From the NCBI RefSeq assembly GCF_900142935.1, contig NZ_FSRS01000001.1, positions 1,994,001 through 2,058,000 on the forward strand: a stretch of DNA of 64,000 nt, in the 5' to 3' direction. Below are positions 3,422-60,239 of the stretch, piece by piece. The position numbers were made by a program, and so were the translations under genes. The first letter of the stretch is position 1. Each line of letters opens with the position of its first letter. Below the pieces are notes generated by a model that did no database searches, had not been told where the DNA came from, and saw only the letters and a program-made list of their open reading frames with translations. Source of the stretch: Rhodovulum sp. ES.010. Lineage in GTDB: Bacteria; Pseudomonadota; Alphaproteobacteria; Rhodobacterales; Rhodobacteraceae.

Positions 3422-3720
3422 TACCCGCGTCGGTCGATCGGCGTCACGCGGTCCAGCCGCGAAACTTCCGCATCGATGAGGATGGCGAGGGAGACGGGGC
3501 TCTGGAACGGGCACAGGGCTGTTCGATCGGCGGTTTCCCGGCGTCTTGCGGCGAACGCGCCCTTTGCCCAATGGGGGCCGACCCTTGCCTTTCGACCCGT
3601 TGGCGTTCTATCGCGTCCCGAGGCTCGCGGCTCCGTGACAAGGCGAGAAGATGACTTGAAGGTGATCGACCTATATCATTTGGGGTCGCCGCACCGCGCG
3701 GCGCCGTGGACCGGACCGCC

Positions 3721-4869
3721 ATGCTTCGGCAATTGATTCTTTCTACGCTGCTGATCGCGGGCACGCTCGCGCTCTGGATCGCTTACGTGCCCTCGGCGAT
3801 TCCGGTGCTCGACCGGGTCGGGTTGCTTGACCTTCTGGGACTCGAACGGACAGCAGAGTCGCAGACACAGGGCAGCCGGTTCCGCCGGGGCGGCGCCATG
3901 GCGGTGGTCGTGGAAAAGGTCGCCGAAGGCAAGATCAGCGACCGGGTTGCCGCGATCGGCGATGGCAGGGCGCTGCGCACGGTCAACCTGCGTACGAAGG
4001 CGACGGGACAGGTGATCGAACTCGGCGTCGACGATGGAGGCTATGTCGAGACGGGCGCGCTTGTCGTCCGGCTCGAGGACGAGGCCGAGCGCATTGCGCT
4101 GGAACGCGCGCGCCTGATGCTGGAGGACGCCCGCGACGAGGCCGACCGCCTGGCACGTCTGGAGACGACCGGCGCGGTGACCGAGGTCAGCCGGCGCGAG
4201 GCCGATCTGGCGCTGAGCACCGCCGAGCTTGCCGTCCGCGACGCCGAATTCGAACTCGCGCAGCGCAGGGTGCATGCGCCCATTTCGGGCTGGGCCGGAA
4301 TCCTCGATCTGTCGGTCGGCGACAGCGTCTCGGCGCAGGAGACGCTTCTGACGCTCACCGACCGGTCGCAAATCCTGATCGATTTTCGGGTCCCCGAACG
4401 GGTGGTCGCGCAGATCGCGCGCGGCATGCCGCTCGAGGCCCGACCGCTGGCGATGCCCGGCACGGCGCTGAGGGGCAAGGTGGACGCCCTCGACAACGTG
4501 GTCGACCGGGCCAGCCGCACCCTGCGCGTGCAGGGGCGGCTGGACAACGCCGAGGACCTCTTGCGCGATGGCATGGCCTTCGAGGTGGTGCTGCGCTTCC
4601 CCGGCGAGACGCTGCCCGCGGTGGACCCGCTCGCGGTTCAGTGGTCGTCCGACGGGGCCTTCGTCTGGACCGTGCGCGACGAAACGGCGACGCGCGTGCC
4701 CATCGCCATCCGCCAGCGCAACGCCGACAGCGTGCTCGTCGAGGCCGAACTTACCCCCGGGGAGCCGGTCGTTACCGAGGGCGTGCAATCGCTGCGCTCC
4801 GGCGCCGCCGTGCGCATCGTCGAACCGCAGGCCGCCGCCCCGCAGGGCGCTGCGGCCCGGCCGCTCTGA
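3721..4869 (+). CDS. RND efflux system periplasmic adaptor (membrane fusion protein)
   Basis: This protein of about 382 residues is the HlyD/AcrA-type adaptor of the RND pump encoded just downstream. An N-terminal hydrophobic anchor (LILSTLLIAGTLALWIAYV) precedes the lipoyl-like half-motif TGQVIELGVDDGGYVETG, a helical hairpin (ARDEADRLARLETTGAVTE) and the second lipoyl half (RRVHAPISGWAGILDLSVGD), then beta-barrel and membrane-proximal domains. The ATG at 3721 is preferred; an in-frame GTG at 3706 is also possible. The gap to the permease gene is 12 bp, so the two are co-transcribed. No outer-membrane factor or regulator gene is adjacent. Substrate unknown. Confidence 0.9.
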   Translation: MLRQLILSTLLIAGTLALWIAYVPSAIPVLDRVGLLDLLGLERTAESQTQGSRFRRGGAMAVVVEKVAEGKISDRVAAIGDGRALRTVNLRTKATGQVIELGVDDGGYVETGALVVRLEDEAERIALERARLMLEDARDEADRLARLETTGAVTEVSRREADLALSTAELAVRDAEFELAQRRVHAPISGWAGILDLSVGDSVSAQETLLTLTDRSQILIDFRVPERVVAQIARGMPLEARPLAMPGTALRGKVDALDNVVDRASRTLRVQGRLDNAEDLLRDGMAFEVVLRFPGETLPAVDPLAVQWSSDGAFVWTVRDETATRVPIAIRQRNADSVLVEAELTPGEPVVTEGVQSLRSGAAVRIVEPQAAAPQGAAARPL

Positions 4870-4881
4870 GGCCGGCCCGCG

Positions 4882-7800
4882 ATGCTGGAGGAAGCGACAC
4901 GCGCGGCACAGCAGGGCGGCCCCGCCATGTTCGTGCGCCGCCCGATCCTGGCGCTCGTGGTCAGCACGTTGATCGTGCTGGCGGGCTTCGCCGCGCTCTT
5001 CGGCGTGGAAATCCGCGAATTGCCGAACGTGGACCGGCCGGTGGTGACCGTGACGACCGAGTTTCCCGGCGCCTCGCCCGAAACCATCGACCAGGAGATA
5101 ACCGGCCGGATCGAGGGCGCGGTGGGCCGCGTTGCGGGCGTGCGCCAGATCTCGTCCAACTCGCGCTTCGGGCGCAGCCGGGTGACGCTGGAATTCGCAG
5201 AAAGCGTGGATATCGACGTGGCCGCCACCGATACCCGTGATGCCGTGGCACGGATCGAGGGGCAATTACCAGAAGGCGCCGAAGACCCCGAGATCGTCAA
5301 GGCCGACGCCGATGCCCAGCCGGTGCTGCGCGTCGCCGTCACCTCGCCCCGGCGGACCGCCCAGGACCTCACGCAGATCGTGCAGGACAGGGTCGAGGAC
5401 CGCCTGATCTCGATCGAGGGCGTGGCGGACCTGCGCATCTATGGCGACCGCGAGCCGATCTTCCGCGTGGATATCGACCAGGCCCGGCTGGCCAGCCGCG
5501 GGCTGACGCTCGCCGATATCCGGGCGGCGCTGGGCGATGCGGGGTTCAATGCCGCGGCTGGCGACCTGGAGGGGACGCGCCAGTCTATCAACGTGCGCAC
5601 CACCGCCATGCTTGAGACGCCCGAGGCGTTCGAGGATCTTCAGATCGCACCGCACGTCGACCTGCGCGATGTCGCGACGGTCACGCTCGGGCCCGCGCCG
5701 AACGAGACGCTCCTGCGCGCCAACGACCAGACCGGGATCGGGCTCGGCGTGATCCGCCAGGCGGGAAGCAACACGCTGGACATCTCGCGCGACGTCCGCG
5801 CGACGGTGGCCGAATTGGACCGGACACTGCCCGACGACATCAGCATCTTCGTCACCTCCGACGACGCGGTGTTCGTCAATGGCGCCATCGTCGAGGTGCT
5901 CAAGACCCTGGGGCTGGCCATCGGGATCGTGGTGCTGGTGATCTTCCTGTTCCTGCGCGACCTGCGCGCCACGCTGATCCCGGGCCTGACCATGCCGGTG
6001 GCGCTGATCGGCACGCTGGCGGCGATCTACATCGTGGGCTTCTCGGTCAATATCCTGACGCTTCTGGCGCTGGTTCTGGCCACCGGCCTGGTGGTCGACG
6101 ACGCCATCGTGGTGCTGGAAAACATCGTGCGCCGCCGCGCCGAGGGCATGGGGCCGCGCGCGGCGGCTGTCCTGGGCACCAAGCAGGTCTTCTTCGCCGT
6201 GGTCACGACAACCGCGACGCTCGCAGCGGTGTTCATTCCCCTGTCGTTCCTGCCCGGCCAGGCCGGGGGGCTGTTCCGAGAGTTCGGCTTCACCCTGGCC
6301 ATGGCGGTGGCGATCTCCTCGGTCGTGGCGTTGACGCTCTGCCCGGTGCTGGCCAGCCGGCTTCTCTCGGACCGAACCGGGGACCAAGCGCCGGGTCCGA
6401 TCGCGCGGGTCGGCAACGGGCTCGCGGCGGTCTATGCGCGCACGTTGCATGGGGCGCTGGCGATGCCTTTGGTCGTCGTCCTGGCTGCCGGGCTCTTTGC
6501 CGTGACGGCGGTGCTGGTCGCCGGCGAGATCCGGCAGGAGCTGACCCCGCGTGAGGACCGCGCCGTGGCGCTCTTGCGGGTCACTGCGCCGCAGGGCGTC
6601 TCTCTCGACTACACGCAATCCAAGATGCGCCAGATCGAGGCGGCGGTGGCCCCCTTGCGCGAGACCGGCGAAATCACCAGCGTCTTCGCCATCTCGGGCT
6701 TTGGCGCCGACAATCGCGGCTTCATGGTGTTCCGGCTGGCCGACTGGGACGACCGCGCGCGCAGCCAGGACGAGATCGTGGGAGAGATCAACGGCAAGCT
6801 GAGGGAAATCGTCGGGGTGCGCGCCTTCGCGATCCAGCCCAATTCTCTGGGCATCCGCGGCGCGGGGCGCGGCCTGAGCTTCGCGATCACCGGTGAAAGC
6901 TACGACCGGCTGGCGGAACTGTCCGAAGCGCTGGTGGCCCGAATGGAGGAGGACACCCGCTTCGGCGATGTCGAACTGGAATACGAGACGACCCAGCCGC
7001 AGCTTTTCGTCGAGATCGACCGCACCCGCGCCTCGGACCTGGGCATCGACATCTCCGGGCTGGGCGAGGCGCTCCGGGCAATGCTGAACGGCCGGACCGT
7101 GGGCTCGGTCTTCATCGGCGACCAGAGCTTCGACATCCAGATGCTGTCGACCTCCGACCCGGTGAACGACCCCGGCGACCTGCAGAACATCTTCGTGAAG
7201 GCGGGCGACGGCCAGATGGTGCCGATGTCGACCTTCGTGCGGCTGGAGGAACGCGCCGTCGCGCCGGAACTCGACCGCGAGGACCAGAGCCGCTCGGTCG
7301 AGATATCGGCGAGCCTGACACCTGCGTTCGCCCTCGGCGATGCGCTGACGGAAGTCGAGGAGCTGGCGGGCGATATCCTTGGGGAACAGAACCGGATCGT
7401 GCCGCTGGGCGAGGCCGCGACGCTTGACCAGACCAATTCCGGCCTCGCGATCATCTTCGGCTTCGCAATCGCGGTGGTATTCCTGGTGCTGGCGGCGCAG
7501 TTCGAGAGTTTCATCTCGGCCATTGTCGTGATGGCCACCGTTCCGCTGGGGCTGGCCTGCGCGGTTTTCGCGCTTATGTTCACGGGGCTCAGCTTGAACG
7601 TCTATTCCCAGATCGGGCTGGTGATGCTGATCGGGATCATGGCCAAGAACGGCATCCTGATCGTGGAATTCGCGAACCAGTTGCGCGACGGCGGAGTCGA
7701 GCTGCGCCGCGCCATCGAGGACGCGGCCACCATCCGCCTCCGGCCAGTGATGATGACCATGACCTCGACCGTTCTGGGCGGGGTGCCCCTGATCCTGTCC

Positions 7801-7986
7801 TCGGGCGCGGGGGCCGAGGCGCGCGAGGCGCTGGGATGGGTCATCGTCGGCGGGCTGGGGCTTGCCACGCTCTCGACGCTCTACCTGACGCCGGTCGCCT
7901 ACCTGCTGCTCGCGCGCTTCTCCAAGCCGCGAGCCGAAGAGACAACGCGCCTCGCCCGCGAGCTGGAGGAGGCGCTGGCCGGCTGA
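4882..7986 (+). CDS. RND family efflux permease
   Basis: This is a 1034-residue inner-membrane proton antiporter of the AcrB/HAE family, the usual length for the family. It has TM1 (FVRRPILALVVSTLIVLAGF), a large periplasmic porter domain, a TM2-6 block beginning about residue 335 with TGLVVDDAIVVLENI (the TM4 proton-relay Asp pair) and a second half with the matching GIMAKNGILIVEFANQLRDG. It forms a pump with the adaptor ending at 4869. An internal ATG at 4927 (MFVRRP) is the start most homologues would predict; the reported start adds 15 residues. Substrate specificity cannot be read from sequence. Confidence 0.93.
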   Translation: MLEEATRAAQQGGPAMFVRRPILALVVSTLIVLAGFAALFGVEIRELPNVDRPVVTVTTEFPGASPETIDQEITGRIEGAVGRVAGVRQISSNSRFGRSRVTLEFAESVDIDVAATDTRDAVARIEGQLPEGAEDPEIVKADADAQPVLRVAVTSPRRTAQDLTQIVQDRVEDRLISIEGVADLRIYGDREPIFRVDIDQARLASRGLTLADIRAALGDAGFNAAAGDLEGTRQSINVRTTAMLETPEAFEDLQIAPHVDLRDVATVTLGPAPNETLLRANDQTGIGLGVIRQAGSNTLDISRDVRATVAELDRTLPDDISIFVTSDDAVFVNGAIVEVLKTLGLAIGIVVLVIFLFLRDLRATLIPGLTMPVALIGTLAAIYIVGFSVNILTLLALVLATGLVVDDAIVVLENIVRRRAEGMGPRAAAVLGTKQVFFAVVTTTATLAAVFIPLSFLPGQAGGLFREFGFTLAMAVAISSVVALTLCPVLASRLLSDRTGDQAPGPIARVGNGLAAVYARTLHGALAMPLVVVLAAGLFAVTAVLVAGEIRQELTPREDRAVALLRVTAPQGVSLDYTQSKMRQIEAAVAPLRETGEITSVFAISGFGADNRGFMVFRLADWDDRARSQDEIVGEINGKLREIVGVRAFAIQPNSLGIRGAGRGLSFAITGESYDRLAELSEALVARMEEDTRFGDVELEYETTQPQLFVEIDRTRASDLGIDISGLGEALRAMLNGRTVGSVFIGDQSFDIQMLSTSDPVNDPGDLQNIFVKAGDGQMVPMSTFVRLEERAVAPELDREDQSRSVEISASLTPAFALGDALTEVEELAGDILGEQNRIVPLGEAATLDQTNSGLAIIFGFAIAVVFLVLAAQFESFISAIVVMATVPLGLACAVFALMFTGLSLNVYSQIGLVMLIGIMAKNGILIVEFANQLRDGGVELRRAIEDAATIRLRPVMMTMTSTVLGGVPLILSSGAGAEAREALGWVIVGGLGLATLSTLYLTPVAYLLLARFSKPRAEETTRLARELEEALAG

Positions 7987-8069: not shown

Positions 8070-9173
8070 ATGCTGGTCTACGTCTACGATTACAGGCTGA
8101 TCGCGGCCTCGGTGGTCATCTCGATGATGGCGGCCTTCACGGGCCTCGCCCTCACGCGGGGGCTGTCCGCGGTCTCGGAAGGCGTGCGCCACCTGCGGAT
8201 CGCGATGGCCGCGATCGCGCTGGGCGGCGGCATCTGGACGATGCATTTCGTCGCCATGCTGGCGATGCGGTTCGAGGTCGCCGTCTATTACGAGGCGCTG
8301 CCCACCGTCGCCTCGGTACTGATCGCGATCCTGCTGGCGGGGCTTGCGCTGATCCTGATGCATTTCGGCCGACGCACCGGGCCCCGGATGGCGCTTTCCG
8401 GGGCGGTGCTCGGGCTCGGCATCGTGATCATGCACTATACCGGCCTTTCGGCCATCGAGGGCTGTCGGCCGGTCTACGGGCTGGCGGGCGTCGCCGTCGC
8501 GGGCGGGCTGGCCGTGCTGTTGGGCGGGCTCGCGATCCGCGTGGCCTATGGCCGGCGCACGTCTGCGAACATCCTCGCGGCAACGGCGATCTTCGGGCTC
8601 TCGGTCGCCATCGTCCATTTCACCGCGATGTACTGGACGGGGTTCGCGCGCACCGCCGGCGACGTGCTGGCCGGACCGGCCATCGACAACGCGCATCTGG
8701 CGCTGCTGGTGCTTGTGACCGCCTTCGTGATCTCGGGCGCCTTCCTGATGTCCGGGGCGTCCTTCCTCTCGGCAAGCCCGTTCCCCGCCGAAGCGCCGGC
8801 AGAACCGCCGCCCGCGCCCCCGAACGAGCCGGCCACAGCCGGCCCCCGCCTGCCCTACGAACGCGAAGGGGTCACCTACTTTTTGCCCCCGGGCGCGGTC
8901 TCGGCGATCCGGGCCGAGGGGCATTACACCATCGCCTATACCGACGAGGGTCGCGTCTTCTGCCCCTGGTCGATCAGCGAGGCGGAGCGGCGGCTCTGCG
9001 CCTCGGGCTTCTTCCGCGTCCACCGCAGCTACCTGGTGAATACCGGGCGCGTGGCGGCCTTCGAACGGCGCAAGGACAGCGGTCTGTGCCGCTTCGAGGG
9101 GCTCGCCGATCTCGACCGCGTGCCGGTCAGTCGCGCGCGCGTGCCCGCGCTCAGGGAGCGGCTCGGCCTCTGA
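8070..9173 (+). CDS. coxC: MHYT-LytTR membrane regulator, CoxC-like
   Basis: This 367-residue protein has about seven N-terminal transmembrane helices carrying the three MHYT signatures: TMHF (57-60), MHYT (121-124) and VHFT (182-185). These are proposed to ligate copper and sense diatomic gas or redox state at the outer membrane face. A Pro/Ala-rich linker (235-260) leads to a C-terminal LytTR DNA-binding domain (about 262-360; AEGHYTIAYTDEGRVFCPW, then FFRVHRSYLVN). CoxC and CoxH of Oligotropha carboxidovorans have the same architecture, and CoxC likewise precedes coxM. By analogy it would control the CO dehydrogenase genes from the membrane. The 12-bp direct repeat just after its stop codon is a candidate binding site. 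The symbol rests on architecture and position. Confidence 0.85.
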   Translation: MLVYVYDYRLIAASVVISMMAAFTGLALTRGLSAVSEGVRHLRIAMAAIALGGGIWTMHFVAMLAMRFEVAVYYEALPTVASVLIAILLAGLALILMHFGRRTGPRMALSGAVLGLGIVIMHYTGLSAIEGCRPVYGLAGVAVAGGLAVLLGGLAIRVAYGRRTSANILAATAIFGLSVAIVHFTAMYWTGFARTAGDVLAGPAIDNAHLALLVLVTAFVISGAFLMSGASFLSASPFPAEAPAEPPPAPPNEPATAGPRLPYEREGVTYFLPPGAVSAIRAEGHYTIAYTDEGRVFCPWSISEAERRLCASGFFRVHRSYLVNTGRVAAFERRKDSGLCRFEGLADLDRVPVSRARVPALRERLGL

Positions 9174-9175
9174 GG

Positions 9176-9207
9176 CGCAACTCGTGAAGCCATTTCGCAA
9201 CTCGTGA
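9176..9207 (+). promoter_or_regulatory. 12-bp direct repeat upstream of coxM, candidate LytTR operator
   Basis: CGCAACTCGTGA occurs at 9176-9187 and again, identical, at 9196-9207, a period of 20 bp or about two helical turns. It starts two bases after the stop of the LytTR-domain gene and lies 121-152 bp before the coxM start. LytTR regulators bind paired direct repeats about two turns apart, often with a GTT core; the complement here contains GAGTTGCG. Confidence 0.5.
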
Positions 9208-9327
9208 GAAGGATCGGGCCGGCGGTGCAGCACCCTGTCGCAGCCAACGCGGCGATCCCTACCCTTTGGCGGCGTGACTACCCGCCGATGTACGAGCGGG
9301 GGCGCGCCAGACAAGGGAGGAGCGCGG

Positions 9328-10179
9328 ATGATCCCAGCGCAGTTCGAATATCACCGGCCGGACTCCGTCGCCGCGGCCGTCGACCTGATGCGAGAGCATG
9401 GCGACGAGGGCCGGGTCGTGGCGGGCGGCCACAGCCTGATCCCGATGATGAAGCTTCGGATGGCCGCGCCGGAACACCTGATCGACCTGCAGGGCATCGC
9501 GGACCTGAAGGGCATCGAGGTCGGAGAAACCATCCGCATCGGCGCGATGACGACGCAATCCGAAATGCTGATCCACACTGGCCTGGCCGACGCCGCGCCG
9601 ATCCTCCTGGAGGCCGCGCGCCAGATCGCCGACCCGCAGGTGCGCAACCTGGGCACCGTGGGCGGCAACGTCGCCAATGGCGACCCGGGCAACGACCTGC
9701 CCGCGCTGATGATGTGCCTTGATGCGCGCTTCACGCTCGTCGGCCCCGACGGCACGCGCGAGGTGGCGGCGCGCGACTTCTACGAGGCGCCCTATGTCAC
9801 CGCGCGCGAGGAGGAGGAGCTGCTGACCGCGGTCAGCTTTGCCGCCCCGCCCAGGGGGCACGCCTACGAAAAGCAGAAGCGCAAGATCGGCGATTACGCG
9901 ACCGCCGCCGCGGCCGTGCTGATCGGCGCAGAGGATGGGCGGGTCGTGTCGGCCTCGGTCGCGATGACCAATGTGGCCGACGTGCCCGTTCACAGCACCG
10001 CGGCGGGCGAGGCCCTGATCGGGACCGCCTGCGGGGAGGACGCGGTGCAGGCCGCGGTTGCCGCCATGCAGGGCGACATCGACCCGGTGGAGGACAACCG
10101 CGGCCCCGTCGAGTTCAAGCGCCACGTCGCCGGCGTGATCCTGGCCCGCGCCATCGCGCGCGCCTGGGACCGGGCCTGA
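9328..10179 (+). CDS. coxM: aerobic CO dehydrogenase, FAD-binding medium subunit
   Basis: This 283-residue flavoprotein subunit of CO dehydrogenase passes electrons from the iron-sulfur subunit to the quinone pool via FAD. The two FAD motifs of the xanthine-oxidase-family medium subunit are present: AGGHSLIP (32-39) and [14 protein letters not shown] (110-123). A strong AGGGAGGAG lies before the ATG at 9328. It opens the operon coxM-coxS-coxL-RidA-coxD-coxE-coxF; medium-small-large order is characteristic of form I CO dehydrogenases, whereas form II enzymes have S-L-M. Length matches the family. Confidence 0.96.
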
Positions 10180-10190
10180 GGGAGGAAAGA

Positions 10191-10678
10191 ATGTCCAGGA
10201 TGCACCTGACGCTGACGGTGAACGGCGAGGCGGTGGAAACGCTGGCCGAACCGCGCGAGCTGCTGATCCACGTGCTGCGCGAGCGGCTGGGGATCACCGG
10301 CCCGCATATCGGCTGCGAGACCAGCCATTGCGGGGCCTGCACGGTCGACATGGACGGCCGCTCGGTCAAGGCCTGCACGGTTCTGGCCGCCCAGGCGCAG
10401 GGGGCCCAGATCACCACGATCGAGGGGATCGGCACGCCTGACGGGCTGCACGCGCTGCAGGAGATGTTCCGCGAGCATCACGGGCTGCAATGCGGCTTCT
10501 GCACGCCGGGGATGATCACGCGGGCCTGGCGGCTCTTGCAGGAAAACCCCTCCCCCACCGAGGAGGAGGTGCGCTTCGGCATGGCCGGGAACCTCTGCCG
10601 CTGCACCGGCTATCAGAACATCGTCAAGGCGGTGCTGGCCGCCGCGCACGAAATGAACACCGTCAAGGAGGCCGCGGA

Positions 10679-10682
<4 letters not shown>
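10191..10682 (+). CDS. coxS: aerobic CO dehydrogenase, [2Fe-2S] small subunit
   Basis: This 163-residue protein binds two [2Fe-2S] clusters that carry electrons from the Mo-Cu site to FAD. The plant-type cluster ligands are Cys42, Cys47, Cys50 and Cys62 ([13 protein letters not shown]). The second cluster is held by Cys101, Cys104, Cys136 and Cys138 (CGFCTPGM and LCRCTGY). It starts 12 nt after coxM behind GAGGGAGGAAAG, and its TGA overlaps the coxL start (ATGA), so the subunits are translationally coupled. Confidence 0.97.
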
Positions 10683-13096
<2,414 letters not shown>

Positions 13097-13148
13097 CCTC
13101 CGGCGCCTGCCGCGTCCCTTCGCGGCAGGCGCCAGTCGGGAGGAGGAG

Positions 13149-13622
13149 ATGGGACGCATCGCCAACCGCATCGAGGCGCTCGGGCTGGTGCTGCCGGCCG
13201 AGGTGCCGGTCTCGCAGCCCTTCCCCTGGGTGAATCTCCGCGGCACGCGGGTTCTGGTCTCGGGCCATGGCCCGCAAGAGCCGGACGGGTCGCTGGCCGG
13301 ACCCTTCGGACGGGTCGGCGCAGACCTGACCGCGGACCAGGGCAAGGCGCTGGCGCGCAAGGCGGCGCTGTCGATGCTGGCCAGCCTGACCCGCGCACTG
13401 GGCGATCTGGACCGGATCACCGCGTGGCACCGCGTGTTCGGCATGGTCAACACGGGCCCGGGCTTCGAACACAGCCCGCATGTCATCAACGGCTTTTCCG
13501 AACTCGTCCTCGAGCTGTTCGGCGACGAGGTCGGGCGCCATGCGCGCTCCGCCGTCGGGATGGCGGCCCTGCCCTTCAACTTCGCCGTCGAGATCGAAGC
13601 CGAACTGGAGATCGCGGCATGA
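13149..13622 (+). CDS. RidA family (YjgF-type) protein inside the cox operon
   Basis: This 157-residue protein belongs to the longer RidA/YjgF subfamily: IEALGLVLPAEVP at the N-terminus, VLVSGHGP, then VNTGPGFEHSPHVINGFSEL and VGMAALPFNFAVEIEAELEI at the C-terminus. The best start is the ATG at 13149 behind GGGAGGAGG; an earlier in-frame ATG at 13089 overlaps coxL. RidA proteins deaminate reactive enamine/imine intermediates, though this subfamily is poorly characterised. It sits between coxL and coxD with a four-base ATGA overlap into coxD, so it belongs to the operon. A role in CO dehydrogenase maturation or protection is inference. It is not one of the classical coxBCMSLDEFGHIK genes. Confidence 0.88.
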   Translation: MGRIANRIEALGLVLPAEVPVSQPFPWVNLRGTRVLVSGHGPQEPDGSLAGPFGRVGADLTADQGKALARKAALSMLASLTRALGDLDRITAWHRVFGMVNTGPGFEHSPHVINGFSELVLELFGDEVGRHARSAVGMAALPFNFAVEIEAELEIAA

Positions 13623-25151: not shown

Positions 25152-28100
25152 TCAGGTCCTGAGGATGCGGTAGATCGCCGGGATCACCAACACCGTCAGC
25201 GCGGTCGACGACGCGAGACCGAACAACAGGGAGATCGCCAGCCCCTGGAAGATCGGGTCCGCCAGGATCACCGCGGCCCCGATCATCGCGGCCAGCGCGG
25301 TAAGCAGGATCGGCTTGAACCGCGTGGCGCCGGCCTCGACCAGCGTCTCCACCGTCACCTGCCCGCCCGGATCGGCATGGCGTATGAAGTCGACCAAGAG
25401 GATCGAGTTGCGCACGATGATGCCGGCCAGCGCGATGAAACCGATCATCGAGGTCGCGGTGAAGGGCGCATCGAACAGCCAGTGGCCCAGCATGATGCCG
25501 AGGAAGGTCAGGGGCACCGGCGTCAACACCACGAGCGGCAGCTTGAACGAGCCGAACTGCGCCACCACGAGGATATAGATTCCCACCAGCGCCACGCCGA
25601 AGGCCGCGCCCATGTCACGGAAGGTCACGTAGGTCACCTCCCACTCGCCATCCCACAACAGCACGGGATCCGCCTCGGACAGCGGCTGGCCGTGCAGCTT
25701 GATCTCGGGCTTGGGCAACTCGCCCCAGTCCATCGCGTCGATGCGCTCCTGCACGGCCAGCATGCCGTAGAGCGGCGCCTCGAATTCGCCCGCCAGTTCG
25801 GCGGTCACCATCTCGGCATAGCGACCGTTGTGCCGGAAGATCGGGTAGGACGCCCGCTCCTCGGCCAACTCCACCACGTCGCCAAGCTCCACCACGCCGC
25901 GCCCGCCGGGCAGGGCGTTGGCGGGGACCGGGGTCGAGAGCACGCGCTCGTCCATTACCCGGTCGGACTTGTCGCGCCCGACCACGATCGGGATCGGCCT
26001 GCGCCCCTCGCCACGATGCGAATAGCCGACCGTCGTGGTGCCGTTGAGCAGCCGCAGAGTCTCCAGCGCGTCTGCCTCCTGCACGTCGAAGTAGGCAAGG
26101 TCCGCGGGGTCGAGGACAGCGCGGATGCGGCGCGGCTGGGTGCCGAAGCTGTCATCAACGTCGACGATGAACCCCGTCTCCTCGAAGGCCTGCCGCACCT
26201 TCCGCGCCACAGCCCGGCGCGTCTCGCCGTCGGGGCCATAGACTTCGGCGAGCAGCGTCGCGATCACCGGCGGGCCAGGCGGAGGTTCGACCACCTTCAG
26301 CACCGTGCCTTCGGGCAGGTCGAGGGCGTGCAACCGCTCGCGCAGGTCCAGCGCGATCGCATGGCTGGTGCGGTTCCGGTGATCCTTGCCGGTCAGGTTC
26401 AGCTGCACGTCGCCCAGATGCGGGCTTTCCCGCAGGAAGTAGTGCCGCACCAGCCCGTTGAAGTTGAACGGTTGCGCCGTGCCGGCATAGGTCTGGACCG
26501 AAACCGTCTCGGGCATGTCCAGCGCCATGCGGGCCACCTGCTGCGCCACCGCGTCGGTGGCCTCGACCGACGCGCCCTCGGGCAGGTCGATCACCACCGA
26601 AAGCTCGGGCTTGTTGTCGAAGGGCAAGAGCTTGACGGTGACGTGTTTGGTGTAGAAGGCCCCCATCGAGCCGAAGGACACCACGGCCACCGCCAGGAGA
26701 AAGGCGAGGCTGGTCCATTTGCGCGACAGGATGGGCCGCACCACGGCGGCGTAGATCCGGCCGAGTCGGCCGCCCGGATGGCCGTGGCCGCCCTCGCCGT
26801 GCAGCGGCGCGCGCCCGGCGACCTTCAGCATCAGCCAGGGCGTGATCATCACCGCCACGAAGAAGGAAAAGATCATCGCCGCCGACGCGTTCGCCGGGAT
26901 CGGGCTCATGTAGGGGCCCATCAGGCCGCTCACGAACAGCATCGGCAAGAGCGCCACGACGACGGTGAGGGTGGCGACGATGGTGGGGTTGCCGACCTCG
27001 GCCACCGCCTCGATCGCGGCCTCGCGGCGGCTTTGCCCCGGTTTCATCATGCCCCAGTGCCGCGCGATGTTCTCGATCACCACGATGGCATCGTCGACGA
27101 GAATCCCGATGGAGAAGATCAACGCGAACAGCGAAACCCGGTTCAGCGTGTAGCCCATGAAATAAGCGGCGAAGAGCGTCAGAAGGATCGTGACAGGGAT
27201 CACGATGGCCACCACCATCGCCTCGCGCCAGCCGATCGCGACGAGTACCAGAGCGACGATGGACACGGTGGCGAGCCCAAGATGGAACAGCAGTTCGTTT
27301 GCCTTCTCGGAGGCGCTCTCGCCATAGTCGCGCGTGATCTCGACCTCGACGGAGTCGGGGATCAAGCCCCCCTCCATCCCGTGCAGACGGTGCAGCACTT
27401 CCTCGGCCACCACCACAGCGTTCGCGCCGGCCCGCTTGGCCAGCGCCAGCGTGACCGCGGGTCGGCGCGTGATCTCGCCATCGGCGGCCATGCGCACCGT
27501 CGCGACGTGATGCTCGTCGAGATCCGTCACGACGCCGATCTCCGCCACGTCGCGGACATAGACGGTGCGCCCGTCGCGCGCGGTCAGTTCCAGGTTGCCG
27601 ATCTCGGCGGGCGTGGACAGCGTTTTGCCGAGCACCAGCCCCACCTGCTGGCCGTCGTCGCGCACCAGGCCCGCCGGCGCCGCGGAATTGGCGCTCTGCA
27701 CCTTGCCGGCCAGTTGCTGCAGCGTGATTCCGTATAGGGCCAGCTTCTCGGGGTCGGGGGCGACGCGCAGCGCCTCCTCGGTCGCGCCGACGAGGTAGGT
27801 CAGCCCGACATCCTCGATCTTGACCAGTTCGGTTTCCACCTCGCGGGCGATACGGGTCAGATCGGCGGCTGTGACCGTGTCCTGCCGAGGCACCGGCGCG
27901 AAGGTCAGCGAGACGATGGCGACGTCGTTGATGCCACGCCCCACCACCAGCGGCTCGGGGATGCCCACGGGGATGCGGTCCAGGTTGGCGAGGATCTTGT
28001 CACGCACGCGCAGGATGGCCGTGTCCTGGGACAGGCCCACCTCGAAGCGCGCGGTCACCATCGCCTGGTCGTCGCGCGTTTCCGAGTAGACGTGTTCGAC

Positions 28101-28376: not shown

Positions 28377-29343
28377 CGGTCACCACGGTGTCACCGGCGG
28401 ACAGGCCCGAAAGGATCTCGCGCCACTCCGCACCGTCATGGCGCACGATGCCACCCGGCACGACGGCACGACGCACCGCACCGCCCTCCCCCGCGACCGC
28501 GACGAAGTCGAGTCCCCCTGCGCGCAGAACAGCGTCCGGCGGCACCAGGAGCGCCGCGCGCGTGCCCACGGGCAGCCGCACCGGCACGCGGCGGCCGACG
28601 AACCGGCCGTCCAGGCCGTCGACCTCGACATCGGCGACGACGCGCCCGCCCTCGATCTGGGGATAGACCTTGGCAAGCCGCCCGGTCTGGCCGTCCATGC
28701 CCGATCCCGCGCCAAGGGTGATCTCGTCGCCCTCGGTCAGCGTCGTGGCGTGGCGTTCCGGGATCGCGAGCCGCAGGAACACGCCGCCGCCGCCGATCTC
28801 GGCCACCGTTTCGCCCGGCGTGATGACCGAGCCGAGCGAAATCGGCACCGACAGCACCACGCCCGTATCCGGCGACAACACCGCACCTTCCGCCACCTGC
28901 TGCTCGACCACCCGCCGTTCGGCGCGCGTCGACTCGATCTGGCCCTCCAACTCGGCGACGCGAGTGCGAAGCTGGTCCAGGCGTTGCTGGGTGATCACGC
29001 CGCGCTCGCGCAGGGCCGCGCCGCGGTCGAGATCCGTTGTCGCGGTCTCCAGCTGGGTGTCCAGCGCCCTGAGTTGCGCATCGATGGCGCGCAGCCGGAA
29101 GCTGAGCTTGTCATCCTCGACCAGGGCGATTTCCTGCCCCGCCTCGACGCGGTCGCCCTCGGTGACCCTCAACTCCACCAGCGTGCCCCCGATCCGGGCG
29201 CGGGCTGGCACGCGGTCGCGGGTCTCTACCTGACCGTAGACCGCCTTCCACTCGGTGATCTCGACGCGTGACAGCGTGAGTTGCCCGGCCGCAACGGGCA
29301 ACGCGGCGAGCAGGGCCAGAACGGCAAGCAGACTCCTCGGCAT
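28366..29343 (-). CDS. RND efflux periplasmic adaptor (second system)
   Basis: This 325-residue membrane-fusion protein has a cleavable signal peptide (PRSLLAVLALLAALPVAAG), lipoyl half VPARARIGGTLVELRVTEGD, a coiled-coil hairpin (residues about 75-130, with QLRALDTQLETATTDLDRGA) and a second lipoyl half (GAVLSPDTGVVLSVPISLGS), then barrel domains. It is co-transcribed with, and overlaps, the RND permease. A 22-bp dyad about 50 bp upstream may bind a regulator. Confidence 0.92.
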   Translation of the reverse strand: MPRSLLAVLALLAALPVAAGQLTLSRVEITEWKAVYGQVETRDRVPARARIGGTLVELRVTEGDRVEAGQEIALVEDDKLSFRLRAIDAQLRALDTQLETATTDLDRGAALRERGVITQQRLDQLRTRVAELEGQIESTRAERRVVEQQVAEGAVLSPDTGVVLSVPISLGSVITPGETVAEIGGGGVFLRLAIPERHATTLTEGDEITLGAGSGMDGQTGRLAKVYPQIEGGRVVADVEVDGLDGRFVGRRVPVRLPVGTRAALLVPPDAVLRAGGLDFVAVAGEGGAVRRAVVPGGIVRHDGAEWREILSGLSAGDTVVTGDE

Positions 29344-37655: not shown

Positions 37656-39125
37656 ATGCGCCTCGTTCCGACCGCCGCCCTCTGCCTCGCGCTCGGCGCC
37701 GGCCAGGCTCTCGCCGCAGAGGACACGATCACCATCGGCATGGTGCTGGAGCCGCCGAACCTCGACCCCACCGGAGGCGCCGCGGCCGCCATCGACGAGG
37801 TGGTCTATGCCAACATCTTCGAGGGGCTAACCCGCTTCGCCCCAGACGGCTCCATCGTGCCGGGGCTGGCGAAAAGCTGGGAGGCGAACGAGAACGCCAC
37901 CGTCTACACGTTCCGCCTGCACGACGGCGTGACCTTTCACGACGGCAGCGCGATGGATGCCGAGGACGTCAAGTTCACCCTCGACCGTGCGCGGGCCGCA
38001 GAGTCGACCAATGCGCAGAAGGCGCTGTTCGCCGGGATCGAAAACGTCGAGGTGGTGGACCCGCTGACCGTGCGGGTCACGCTGTCGGCGCCTGACGGCA
38101 ATTTCCCCTTCAACATGGCCTGGGGCGACGCTGTAATCGTCGCGCCCGAAACGGTCGACAGTCTCGCGACCGCACCCGTTGGCACCGGCCCGTTCAGGTT
38201 CGACCGCTGGGCGCAGGGCGACCGGATCGAAATCGTGCGCAACTCCGACTACTGGGGCGCGACGCCGGCGCTGGCGTCGGCGACGTTCAAGTTCATCTCG
38301 GACCCCAACGCGGCTTTCGCCGCGATGATGGCCGGCGACGTGGACGCCTTTCCCAACTTCCCCGCGCCCGAGACGCTCTCGCAATTCGAGGCCGACCCGC
38401 GGTTCGAGGTGATCGTGGGCTCGACCGAAGGTGAGACGATACTGGCGATGAACAATGCGCAGGCCCCGCTTGACGACGTGCGGGTGCGCGAAGCCATCGC
38501 GCACGCGATCAGCCGCCAGGATATCATCGACGGCGCGATGTTCGGCTACGGCACGCCCATCGGTACGCACTTCCCACCGCACCACCCCGACTACGTCGAT
38601 CTCACCGAGCTTTCGGCGCATGACCCGGCGCGGGCGAAGACGCTGCTGGAAGAGGCGGGTCAGACCGATCTGACGCTGCGCCTGGCACTCCCGCCGCCCT
38701 CCTATGCCCGGCGCGGCGGCGAGATCGTCGCCGCACAGCTTCGCGCCGTCGGCATCGAGACCGAGATCACCAACCTGGAATGGGCACAGTGGCTGGAACA
38801 GGTGTTCACGGGCCGCGATTTCGACCTGACCATCGTCAGCCATACCGAGCCCATGGACATCAACATCTATGCCCGGCCCGACTACTACTTCCAGTATGGC
38901 GGTCCCGACTTCGCAGCGTCGATGGAGAACTTGACAAGCACGACCGACGCCGCCGCGCGATCGGATATCCTGAAGGACGCGCAGCGCATGATCGCCGAGG
39001 ACTACGTCAACGGCTTCCTGTTCCAGCTTGCCAAGACCGGCGTCGCCAACGCCGGGATCGAGGGATTGTGGGAGAACGCGCCGACCCAGGCCAACGACCT
39101 GACCGGCGTTTACTGGACCGAGTGA
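37656..39125 (+). CDS. ABC transporter substrate-binding protein, oligopeptide/nickel family (SBP_bac_5)
   Basis: This 489-residue periplasmic binding protein has a signal peptide ([19 protein letters not shown], cleaved before AEDT). It has the cluster C solute-binding fold: [56 protein letters not shown] and the late [20 protein letters not shown]. Such proteins bind peptides, opines, nickel-chelates or other amides. The matching permease and ATPase genes lie 2 kb downstream (41189-44519), separated by two opposite-strand genes. The ligand is unknown; creatine-like compounds are a contextual guess. Its 3-prime end overlaps the convergent HD-domain gene by 16 bp. Confidence 0.92.
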
Positions 39126-56602: not shown

Positions 56603-59364
56603 TGGCCCAGCCTGTCGAGCAGCGCGGGCACGTGGACCTGATCGGATTTGTAGTTGCCGGTCAGCACATGCATCATGAGGTTGATCCCGAAGCGGAAGGC
56701 GATTTCGCGCTGGCGCTCGCCGGCATAGCCTCGGCCGACCGGGAACATCGCCCCGCCCTGCCCGTCCACCGCCCAGGCCGCCGCCCAGTCGTTGCCGCCG
56801 ATCACCACCGGCGTGACACCGTCATTGAGGTCGCGGAACGGCATGCCCTCGGCCTGTTCGGCGTCCGCCGGCGCGGCTTCGACCCAGACATCGCGGCTGG
56901 CATGGCGGCCGGGGAAGTCCTGGAGCAGGTAAAAGGTCCGCGTGAGCACGTGGTCGGTGGGCACGGGTTCCAGCGGCGGCACGTCGAGCGGCTGGGCGAG
57001 TCGCTGCAAGCGCCGGCCCTCGGGCGAGCCGCCGCCGAACCGGGCGACGTCGGCGTCGCGCGTGTCGAACAGGATCATGCCGCCGGTACGCAGGTAGCGG
57101 TTGAGCTTGGCATAGGCCTCGGACGAGGGCTGCGGCTGGCCCGCGGTCACCGGCCAGTAGAGGAAGGGGAAGAGGGACAGCTCGTCGGTTTCGAGGTTCA
57201 CGGCGATGGGCTCGGCGGGCTCGATTGAGGTGCGCTGGGTCAGTTTTTCCGACAGCCCGCGCAGCCCCGCGCGTGCCACCTCGTCCACCCGGGCGTCGCC
57301 GGTCACCACATGGGCCAGCACCACCTCGGTCGTGGCCTTCAGCGCCAGCGCGTCGTCCGTGGCCTGTTGCGCGTCGGCCTCCATCGGCAGCATCAGCGCC
57401 AGCACCAGCGCTGCAACCGCGCCCGAGCGCTGGCCGCGGAGCCGCCCCGAGAGCCAGAGCGAGGCGAGGATATCGGCGGCGAAAAACGCGAGCGCCGCGG
57501 TCAGGACCCAGCCTTTCAAGAGCGTCTCGCGCGCCAGCGCGAGCCCCTCGACGGGGATGCGCGCGGGCCAGGCGATCGGCGCGATCTGGGTTTCGGGGCC
57601 GACGACGTTGAGCGCGAGGCGGCGGTCGTCGCCGGCATAGAGCCCCGGCGGAAGGTCGGGGCCGGGGCGCGCGTCGGCTAGTTTCTCGCCGGGGATGCCG
57701 GGCAGCGTGCCGGCCTCGCCCACGTCGCCGAAGGCGTCCAGAACCGTTTCGGCGACCCAGGTGGTGCCCTGCAGTTCCGCCGCCTCGGGGCGCGCAGGGC
57801 GCGTCGAGACGGCCAACCGTTCAAGCATCTGCACGAACAGGCCCGAGAGCGGCAGGGTCGACCATTCGACGTTGGCAGTAACGTGGAACAACACCACCTG
57901 CCCTTGGCCCAGCTTCTTGCGGGTAACCAGCGGCGTGCCGTCGGTCAGCGCCGCGATGGAGCGGTCGACAAGCTGCGGGTCGGGCTGGGCCATGACCTGC
58001 GCGTTCACCCGGACGTCTGGCGGCACCTCCAGCCCGACGAAGGGAGATGATTCCGCGAAAGGCCGCAACTGCTTGGGCTCGCCCCAGCTCATCGCGCCGC
58101 CGACGGTGCGCCCGCCCACGCGCAGGCGCACCGGCATCAGCGGGTCTTCGGCGTCGCGGCTGACATCCGAGGCGGCGAGGCGGGGGCCCGCGAACCGCAC
58201 CAGCAACCCGCCATCCTCGACCCAGCCCTGCAACGCCTCGGCCTCGGCGGCTGCGAGCGTCGCGATATCGGCCAATACGATCACGTCGGGGCTGGCAAGA
58301 ATGATGTCGGACAGGGTGCCGTCGACTAGGTCCGCGGTCGGCTCGAGCGCCTTGTTCAGGTAGAACAGCGGCGAGAGCAATTGCAGCCCCTCGCGGTTTT
58401 CGCGCCCTGCAAGAAGCGCGACTTCTCGGCGCTTGAGGCTGTCATCGGTCAGCGTGACCGCACCGGCAGAGCGCACCCCCTCGACCGCGAAGCGACTGAT
58501 GCGGTTGCGCAACTCGGGCGGCAGGACGAGCTCGGTCTCGACCGTGCCCGCGCCCGCCTCGAACGTGGCCTGCGTCCGGGCCAGAACCCGCTCCACCCCC
58601 GCCGGGTCCCGACCCGTCGCGCTGAACGTGACCTCGGAGGCATCGTCCGCCCGGGCGCGCAACGCGGTCAGCCGGATCGCCCCGTCCTCGAAGGCCGCAG
58701 GACGTAGCACAACAACCGGCCGGGGGCTTTCGAACACGCGGACGTCGCCCGCGGCGGTGAATGTGGTCAGCAGACCCTGCCGCCCCTCGTAATCCAACCC
58801 GCCGGACATCCAGAAGGTATCGAACCCGCCGTCCAGCCCGTCGGCCCATACGCCCAGCGCCTGCACGTCGGGCAGCCAGGGCGCGGGTTCCAGCCCGGCA
58901 AGCCGGCTGATCCAGGCCTCTGCCGCCTGGAAGGGCAGTCCCGCCTCGGGCAGGTCGGTCGCCTGCACCACGGCCACGGGCCGTCCGTCGCGCCCGGCCT
59001 CGTCCAGAATCGCCTCGACCCGGTCCATCCTACGCGGCCAGTCGCGCGCGTCCGCCCAGGTGCCGTCGATGAAGACGAGAAGCGGCCCCTCGCCCGGCTG
59101 CCGGTCCCGCGGGTTCAGGATCGGGCCGGCGAAGGCGACGATGAGCGCCGCGACCGCCAGCATGCGAAGCAGCAGCAGCCACCAGGGCGTCTTGTCTGTC
59201 TGGGTCTCGTCGTCGGTCAGCCCGAGGAGCAGCGCGACGCCCGGAAACCGCCGGCGGATCGGCGCCGGCGGCACGGCGCGCAACACAAGCCACAACGCCG
59301 GAAGCGCGACCAGCGCCCAAAGCAACGCCGGCGCGGCGAACCCGATGCCGCCGATCGTCCACAT
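56599..59364 (-). CDS. BatA-like membrane protein with DUF4159 domain
   Basis: This 921-residue protein starts with the aerotolerance-regulator BatA N-terminal domain (two helices; ALLWALVALPALWLVLRAVP, PIRRRFPGVALLLGLTDDET), has a long periplasmic middle and a further membrane region (about 640-690) before a C-terminal DUF4159 domain (FLYWPVTAGQ, GGMILFDTRDAD, GGNDWAAAWAVDGQGG). The chosen ATG at 59364 overlaps the DUF58 stop. DUF4159 proteins pair with MoxR ATPases across proteobacteria; function of the complex is undefined. Confidence 0.88.
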   Translation of the reverse strand: MWTIGGIGFAAPALLWALVALPALWLVLRAVPPAPIRRRFPGVALLLGLTDDETQTDKTPWWLLLLRMLAVAALIVAFAGPILNPRDRQPGEGPLLVFIDGTWADARDWPRRMDRVEAILDEAGRDGRPVAVVQATDLPEAGLPFQAAEAWISRLAGLEPAPWLPDVQALGVWADGLDGGFDTFWMSGGLDYEGRQGLLTTFTAAGDVRVFESPRPVVVLRPAAFEDGAIRLTALRARADDASEVTFSATGRDPAGVERVLARTQATFEAGAGTVETELVLPPELRNRISRFAVEGVRSAGAVTLTDDSLKRREVALLAGRENREGLQLLSPLFYLNKALEPTADLVDGTLSDIILASPDVIVLADIATLAAAEAEALQGWVEDGGLLVRFAGPRLAASDVSRDAEDPLMPVRLRVGGRTVGGAMSWGEPKQLRPFAESSPFVGLEVPPDVRVNAQVMAQPDPQLVDRSIAALTDGTPLVTRKKLGQGQVVLFHVTANVEWSTLPLSGLFVQMLERLAVSTRPARPEAAELQGTTWVAETVLDAFGDVGEAGTLPGIPGEKLADARPGPDLPPGLYAGDDRRLALNVVGPETQIAPIAWPARIPVEGLALARETLLKGWVLTAALAFFAADILASLWLSGRLRGQRSGAVAALVLALMLPMEADAQQATDDALALKATTEVVLAHVVTGDARVDEVARAGLRGLSEKLTQRTSIEPAEPIAVNLETDELSLFPFLYWPVTAGQPQPSSEAYAKLNRYLRTGGMILFDTRDADVARFGGGSPEGRRLQRLAQPLDVPPLEPVPTDHVLTRTFYLLQDFPGRHASRDVWVEAAPADAEQAEGMPFRDLNDGVTPVVIGGNDWAAAWAVDGQGGAMFPVGRGYAGERQREIAFRFGINLMMHVLTGNYKSDQVHVPALLDRLGQ

Positions 59365-60239
59365 CAGCGCACCCGTTCGAGGGCGCGGTACAACCACAGA
59401 AGCGCTCCTTGCGCCCCTTCGCCCGAGTGATGCGTGGAGTAATACCAGCCAGTGACGCGCGCAAGCTCGGCCAGCCGCGCCTTGCGTTCGGCCAGTCGTT
59501 CGAGGTACCGGACCTTCAATTCTCCCGCCTTCAGCGTCTCGTGGCGCAGGCTGCCGCCCATGCTCTCGAAGATGGTGCGCCCGTCATAGGGGAATGCTTC
59601 CTCCGCGGGGTCCAGGATCTGCAGCATTGCGCCGGTGACGCCCCGATCGGCGGCCTCGGTCAGCGTGCGCTCCACCGGCGCCAGGTCACCGAGGAAATCG
59701 GACAGGAAGACCGCGCGGGAGTGGGGTGCCATCCCGCGGGCCTCCGGCGCCCCGTAATCGGCCTCCCCCTGCGCGGCGCTCAGGATGTCGGCCATGCGCA
59801 GGAGTTGCAGCGCCCCCCGGCGCGGGGGCAATCCGGAGCCCAAGAGGCCCACGCGCTCTCCGCCGCGGTTCAGCAGGACGGCCACCGCCATCGCCAAGAC
59901 CCGGGCGCGTTCGGCCTTACTGGGGTGGGTCTTGTCGCCCGCAAAGCCCATGGAGGCGGAATCGTCGACCCAGATCAGCACGCTCTGCGCGGCCTGCCAT
60001 TCCTTTTCCCGCACGAAATGCGCGTCCGACCGGCCGGACCGGCGCCAGTCGATCATTCGCGCCTCGTCGCCAGCATGCGCCGGGCGGTATTGCCAGAACT
60101 CGTCGCCCATCCCCGCGCGCCGGCGCCCGTGCTCGCCCAGAAGCACCGCCTGCGCCAGATGCTCGGCATCGGCGAGCAGCGGCGGCAGCGCCTCGGCGAT
60201 GCCTTCGGCGCAGGCGCGGAGGGCGGCGGGGTCGCTCAC
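59364..60239 (-). CDS. DUF58 domain protein
   Basis: This 291-residue protein has the DUF58 signature: GDEFWQYRPAHAGDEARMID then WRRSGRSDAHFVREKEW, followed by a VWA-like fold with MIDAS-like DDSASM. DUF58 proteins are encoded beside MoxR ATPases and probably serve as adaptors. The start overlaps the MoxR stop by four bases and its stop overlaps the BatA/DUF4159 start. Confidence 0.92.
   Translation of the reverse strand: MSDPAALRACAEGIAEALPPLLADAEHLAQAVLLGEHGRRRAGMGDEFWQYRPAHAGDEARMIDWRRSGRSDAHFVREKEWQAAQSVLIWVDDSASMGFAGDKTHPSKAERARVLAMAVAVLLNRGGERVGLLGSGLPPRRGALQLLRMADILSAAQGEADYGAPEARGMAPHSRAVFLSDFLGDLAPVERTLTEAADRGVTGAMLQILDPAEEAFPYDGRTIFESMGGSLRHETLKAGELKVRYLERLAERKARLAELARVTGWYYSTHHSGEGAQGALLWLYRALERVR

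Follow-up and report, generated by a model that had tools for sequence, protein, structure and literature searches.

The window analysed here, a stretch of 64,000 nucleotides from Rhodovulum sp. ES.010, carries a coxC-type regulator gene (8070-9173, + strand) followed on the same strand by coxM (9328-10179), the first presumed target gene, coxS (10191-10682) and coxL (10670-13096). The regulator is a 367 aa protein in which Pfam recognises an MHYT membrane sensor (3.4e-24) and a C-terminal LytTR DNA-binding domain (4.4e-16). The Pfam assignments of the three cox genes are FAD_binding_5 and CO_deh_flav_C for coxM, Fer2 and Fer2_2 for coxS, and MoCoBD_1 and MoCoBD_2 for coxL, which is of the form I type and shares 71-89% identity with the 45 other coxL matches that exceed 1000 bits in the family sample, a cut-off chosen by the analyst. 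The regulator was aligned with 11 CoxC-type proteins, including CoxC of A. carboxidovorans (33%); the three histidines of the MHYT motifs are kept in the window protein and are invariant in the 12 aligned sequences.

Between regulator and coxM, CGCAACTCGTGA occurs twice on the + strand, at 9176-9187 (copy I; 16.3 bits under a motif learned from other loci) and 20 bp further on at 9196-9207 (copy II; 14.8 bits), bearing out the perfect 12-bp repeat with a 20-bp period that was claimed in the preliminary description. Its reported position directly after the regulator stop codon is likewise correct, with the TGA at 9171-9173, two bases ahead of copy I; the location upstream of coxM also stands, but the distance of 121 bp does not, since 120 bp were counted from the end of copy II (9207) to the coxM ATG (9328). 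Both copies match CGCANYTCGTG in full, in the same direction, and together they are the top-scoring pair in the window (31.2 bits; next non-overlapping pair, 5.3). In the 3.83 Mb genome the exact pair is unique; allowing up to 3 mismatches adds two further 31-mers, each with 3 mismatches, compared with one for the reversed control. Perfect 12-bp direct repeats with a period of 13-40 number 2 in the window and 0 to 6 in 20 third-order Markov controls, so that the repeat by itself is within chance, and it is conservation across relatives that sets the array apart from chance. The highest-scoring individual box in the window is CGCATTTCGTGCG, far away on the - strand (60010-60022) and within a long ORF (59364-60239); it is probably a coding coincidence as it has no partner.

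Conservation was assessed in a family sample of 198 genomes searched with the CoxC protein, 73 of which gave some match at E 1e-3. CoxC genomes numbered 41 including the window's own, i.e. 40 with strong matches, among them G186 and G076 whose matches each fall in two pieces, plus G017 (E 6e-36); weak MHYT or LytTR matches among the 73 were not counted. A clear CGCANYTCGTG pair with a period of 20 or 21 precedes coxM in 40/41 CoxC genomes, and coxM lay within the fetched stretch at all 40 strong-CoxC loci. The pairs at these 40 loci reach scores of 19-24 out of a possible 24, whereas 8000 letter shuffles of the same stretches have a mean of 13.9 and never exceed 19; one locus (L024) no more than equals the shuffle maximum. 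With 19-22 permitted, the period from copy I to copy II was 20 at 20 loci and 21 at the other 20, and box positions G2, T7 and G11 are invariant in both copies throughout. The AC carried by the window at box positions 5-6 was found again in relatives. In the 41st genome, G017, whose CoxC is 29-32% identical, the best pair of the locus is a weak one (9.9 bits, period 20) located 160 bp before coxM.

The exact pair pattern was found in 58 of 394 family genomes, at one site each, and the reversed control pattern 21 times. Thirty of the 58 matches were fetched as loci and 29 of these sit 121-165 bp before coxM; the 3 kb of the remaining locus, L056, contain no cox gene. Among the first 198 genomes the exact pattern is present in 26/41 with CoxC and 0/157 without. 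CoxL without CoxC was seen in 5/46 CoxL-positive genomes, of which G008, G102 and G110 run into contig ends and were set aside. G083, in which coxM is present, gave no CoxC match, no LytTR match and no array.

Relatives also point to a third copy. When loci were anchored on copies I and II, the mean box match between 34 and 49 bp from copy I peaked at 41, reaching 6.8 of 12 where copies I and II are 20 bp apart and 5.1 where they are 21 bp apart. At this position at least 5 of the 6 core letters were matched by 11/20 loci in each period group, versus 2/20 at 40 and 6/20 at 42, respectively, and a lesser peak at 45 comprised 8/20 loci in each group. A three-copy optimiser at times picked a spurious first copy, and the counts given here rest on pairs instead. 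Placed from its position in relatives, the possible copy III of the window is GGCCGGCGGTGCA (9217-9229, + strand), 41 bp past copy I, with 7/12 consensus matches and a score of -5.9 bits. The preliminary description had proposed a paired repeat; two strong copies are indeed present, but the operator most likely comprises three, the third being weak in the window.

Beyond the family, named CoxC loci were taken as the best 80 of 587 matches together with three plasmid loci, giving 80 with coxM downstream. The highest-scoring pair of the locus, sought on both strands with the period free from 15 to 30, fell within the coxC-coxM gap in 80/80, a figure that serves as a consistency check because the 144 copies used to train the motif came from 72 of the same 80 loci. 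L097, L126 and L143 are outside this count as they have no coxM downstream, L143 stopping at the locus edge. Periods were 20 in 40 loci, 21 in 37, 19 in 2 and 23 in 1, and the labels of these loci include Oricola, Zhengella, Bradyrhizobium, Rhizobium, Mesorhizobium, Afipia birgiae, Nisaea and Granulosicoccus. A class-wide sample was drawn separately, 30 loci being fetched from its best matches, and provides a cleaner check, although the window's own genome and G055, already used in the analyses above, are among them. All 13 of its loci with coxM (13/13) have their best pair 127-350 bp before that gene on the same strand (13.3-43.9 bits), with a period of 20 in 8 and 21 in 5, and in the 17 loci without coxM, most of which encode other MHYT proteins, the best pair scores between -1.7 and 11.7 bits. 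Alignment of coxC-coxM gaps in relatives had been proposed as a check on the preliminary description, and at all three levels the repeat is kept; its absence from relatives with the same gene order, named there as the outcome that would count against the proposal, was not observed, the boxes being present throughout, in G017 as a weak pair only.

The array stays before coxM in all three genomes in which coxC and coxM are separated. In G007 the two genes are 3.7 kb apart and the array starts 127 bp before coxM, while in Roseovarius mucosus and Candidatus Rhodobacter lobularis, where no coxM is found within 4 kb of coxC, the sole pattern match of each genome lies 126-132 bp before coxM. The genes intervening in G007 include, by eye, a manganese-type regulator and a transporter. 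The tie to coxM has exceptions, as two plasmids carry a post-coxC array with no coxM annotated. On S. meliloti AK83 plasmid pSINME01 (L085, 6204-6500) an array of two or three boxes follows coxC, and on a Roseivivax sp. THAF197b plasmid (L243, 3303-10519) a Tn3 transposon lies between the array and coxS. The S. meliloti coxC is without cox genes, the next annotated gene encoding a short EAL-domain protein.

A 2024 study of Afipia carboxidovorans OM5 described CoxC together with one operator for it (Nucleic Acids Res., PMC11347149). That CoxC is membrane-bound, binds direct repeats via its LytTR domain and responds to CO (PMC11347149), and it represses PcoxB, with CO in the presence of copper relieving repression (PMC11347149). 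A held-out test was made by excluding Afipia and Bradyrhizobium loci from training and scanning both strands of the 133,057 bp pHCG3. The three top pairs were at 25687 (24.9 bits), before coxB in the published CoxC operator region, at 28727 (24.1 bits), in the coxC-coxM gap, and at 37939 (22.7 bits), in the coxH-coxI gap; the next pairs, at 16.0 and 15.5 bits, are both within other genes. The coxH-coxI site (L197, 37925-38349) is a third CoxC-type array with copies at 37939 and 37959 and, by eye, another at about 37981. No operator before coxM and no coxH-coxI site was found reported in the searchable literature, which leaves out most subscription papers, older work on cox transcription among them, and the CoxC tests described there concern a single promoter in a single bacterium.

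The PcoxB operator had been sought via RcoM-like repeats and three direct repeats were proposed (PMC11347149). These map to 25704, 25733 and 25759, i.e. 29 and 26 bp apart, whereas the present register gives 25687, 25708 and 25728, with a weak third copy (-3.2 bits). The first published mutation hits G2 of copy II and the second hits T6, T7 and G11 of copy III, while the third published repeat is out of the present register. The reported loss of binding is compatible with both registers because the mutations also alter copies II and III. The published forward primer carries part of an EcoRI site in place of bases 1 and 2 of the best copy. The window array resembles the PcoxB operator in serving, on the present reading, an MHYT-LytTR regulator of cox genes and in the number of repeats proposed, but the PcoxB site stands at the start of the cluster, upstream of coxB, whereas the window site lies between coxC and coxM, and the published steps of 29 and 26 bp differ from the 20/21-bp steps of the window array family. 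The window copies, reading CTCGTGAA and CTCGTGAG, do not literally fit the published TTNNNGCN, which is why the window site was not filed as a copy of the PcoxB site; the consensus of its relatives, TTCGTGCA, does fit.

Other LytTR systems provide a further comparison. Canonical LytTR sites (AgrA, ComE and others) consist of boxes of about 9 bp that are repeated in the same direction and separated by 10-13 bp (PMC11347149). The window array shares with these a pair of same-direction repeats about two helical turns apart, but canonical sites are usually pairs, whereas here the box is longer, the copies are probably three and the regulator would be membrane-bound. RcoM, a soluble heme protein and an activator (PMC11347149), has an operator in Paraburkholderia xenovorans in which TTCNNGCA is directly repeated three times at a spacing of 12-13 bp, giving a period of 20-21 (PMC11347149). 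The period is the same and the TTCGTGCA inside the consensus box fits TTCNNGCA, although the window regulator has MHYT in place of the PAS domain of the soluble PAS-heme LytTR protein RcoM. Candidate sites picked by eye in two Burkholderiales carry other letters. In Paraburkholderia aromaticivorans, CGACATTCGCGCA and TGGAATTGATGCA, 21 bp apart, lie ahead of the ompW gene that precedes coxM and adjoin a LytTR protein without MHYT (Pfam finds LytTR only), a putative RcoM. In the unannotated Caballeronia sp. SBC2, CGAAATTCGCGCA and AGCCGTTCACGCA are likewise 21 bp apart. The CoxC motif scores the two places at 7.5 and 10.5 bits, respectively, another place ranking higher in both loci, and it looks as if CoxC and the Burkholderiales candidates share geometry and differ in letters. 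A phylum-wide search for three TTCNTGC copies hit 17/398 genomes and was set aside as uninformative, most of the matches, judged by eye, being tandem repeats or a single recurring stretch that looks like coding sequence.

The repeat, its conservation and its tie to both coxM and CoxC are directly supported. The interpretation of the array as an operator through which CoxC controls coxMSL draws on the published A. carboxidovorans CoxC and on the MHYT histidines kept in the window CoxC. On this footing CGCAACTCGTGA is very probably a CoxC landing site before the CO dehydrogenase genes, and it is held with high confidence that the array serves as the operator of the CoxC encoded upstream, controlling coxMSL, with CO altering the grip of the protein. 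Each 13-bp box (consensus CGCATTTCGTGCA; CGCAACTCGTGA in the window) would be read by one LytTR domain, so that window CoxC would bind the array with one such domain per copy, at two strong copies and then a weaker third. The 20/21-bp steps place the boxes on one helix face and in the same direction. The MHYT domain would anchor CoxC in the membrane while the protein grips the array ahead of coxMSL, and CO, with copper, acting on the MHYT domain would change this grip so that coxMSL is transcribed. If the array is the operator, the sign is probably repression relieved by CO. The preliminary description had already put forward a LytTR-type operator through which the neighbouring MHYT-LytTR protein controls coxMSL, which the conservation supports, and a membrane-tethered LytTR regulator, a type now in print for A. 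carboxidovorans CoxC (PMC11347149).

An alternative reading of the sign is that the same regulator at the same operator activates coxMSL and that CO strengthens the effect. Like most LytTR regulators, RcoM1 is an activator that binds upstream of -35 (PMC11347149); no promoter overlapping the array was found, and among the named loci the array starts 95-198 bp ahead of the ATG. The published PcoxB operator overlaps the -35 box, but no sigma-70 match was obtained in 9100-9400 of the window, and when the sequences behind the arrays were searched for a common promoter motif, those scoring above shuffles were scattered, with no positioned element. The coxM promoter was thus not located, position gives no verdict and activation stands as a rival; against it, A. 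carboxidovorans CoxC represses PcoxB (PMC11347149), and activation is regarded as rather unlikely.

The array could instead be read by another regulator, such as a second LytTR protein, its proximity to coxC being incidental; the genome of the window does encode a second LytTR protein, and G109 (L065) has a fair pair (18.4 bits) 122 bp before coxM together with another LytTR protein (C115) and no CoxC match. The restriction of the exact pattern to CoxC genomes, and the fact that a motif learned elsewhere ranks the tested CoxC operator region first in 133 kb, make this improbable. More improbable still is an RNA element in the coxM leader, such as a structure or attenuator, rather than a DNA site for a protein. 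The intergenic gap is possibly transcribed, but this candidate was dropped after Rfam and folding searches both came back empty (in 8900-9600 Rfam matched nothing up to E 1, the folding z-score was -0.28 versus shuffles and there was no terminator-like site), and same-direction copies at fixed helical steps also argue against it. The perfect repeats in the Markov controls are all that speaks for a chance repeat, which is refuted by conservation at 40/41, 80/80 and 13/13 loci and has a negligible probability.

Aerobic bacteria take up about 250 teragrams of atmospheric CO a year (PMC6794299). Beyond the published CoxC and its one operator, the analysis adds the site before coxM and a 13-bp box with a register of its own. 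A defined box would allow CoxC targets to be read from sequence, as the single exact pair in each of those 58 genomes illustrates. A broader proposal, tentative and held at somewhat less than even confidence, is that the coxM array is the ancestral and general CoxC operator, with a 20/21-bp register of 13-bp boxes that the 29/26 assignment of the prototype missed, that A. carboxidovorans has three such operators (coxB, coxM and coxI), and that copper-MHYT and heme-PAS sensors share one operator grammar. If true, the sensing half of a CO regulator, membrane copper-MHYT or cytosolic heme-PAS, may change while the DNA half stays. For A. carboxidovorans the box predicts two further operators and another register at PcoxB.

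A motif scan found no array before coxC in the window, so coxC is probably outside the control of the array; in this organism the regulator gene would lie outside its own target, suggesting that the sensor is present before CO arrives. Directly upstream of coxC and on the same strand, Pfam identifies an HlyD-type adaptor and an AcrB-type pump (3706-7986). At the other end of the cox genes, a 177-aa ORF (13089-13622) between coxL and a MoxR-type gene is RidA/YjgF-like by eye and is absent from the cox genes listed for A. carboxidovorans.
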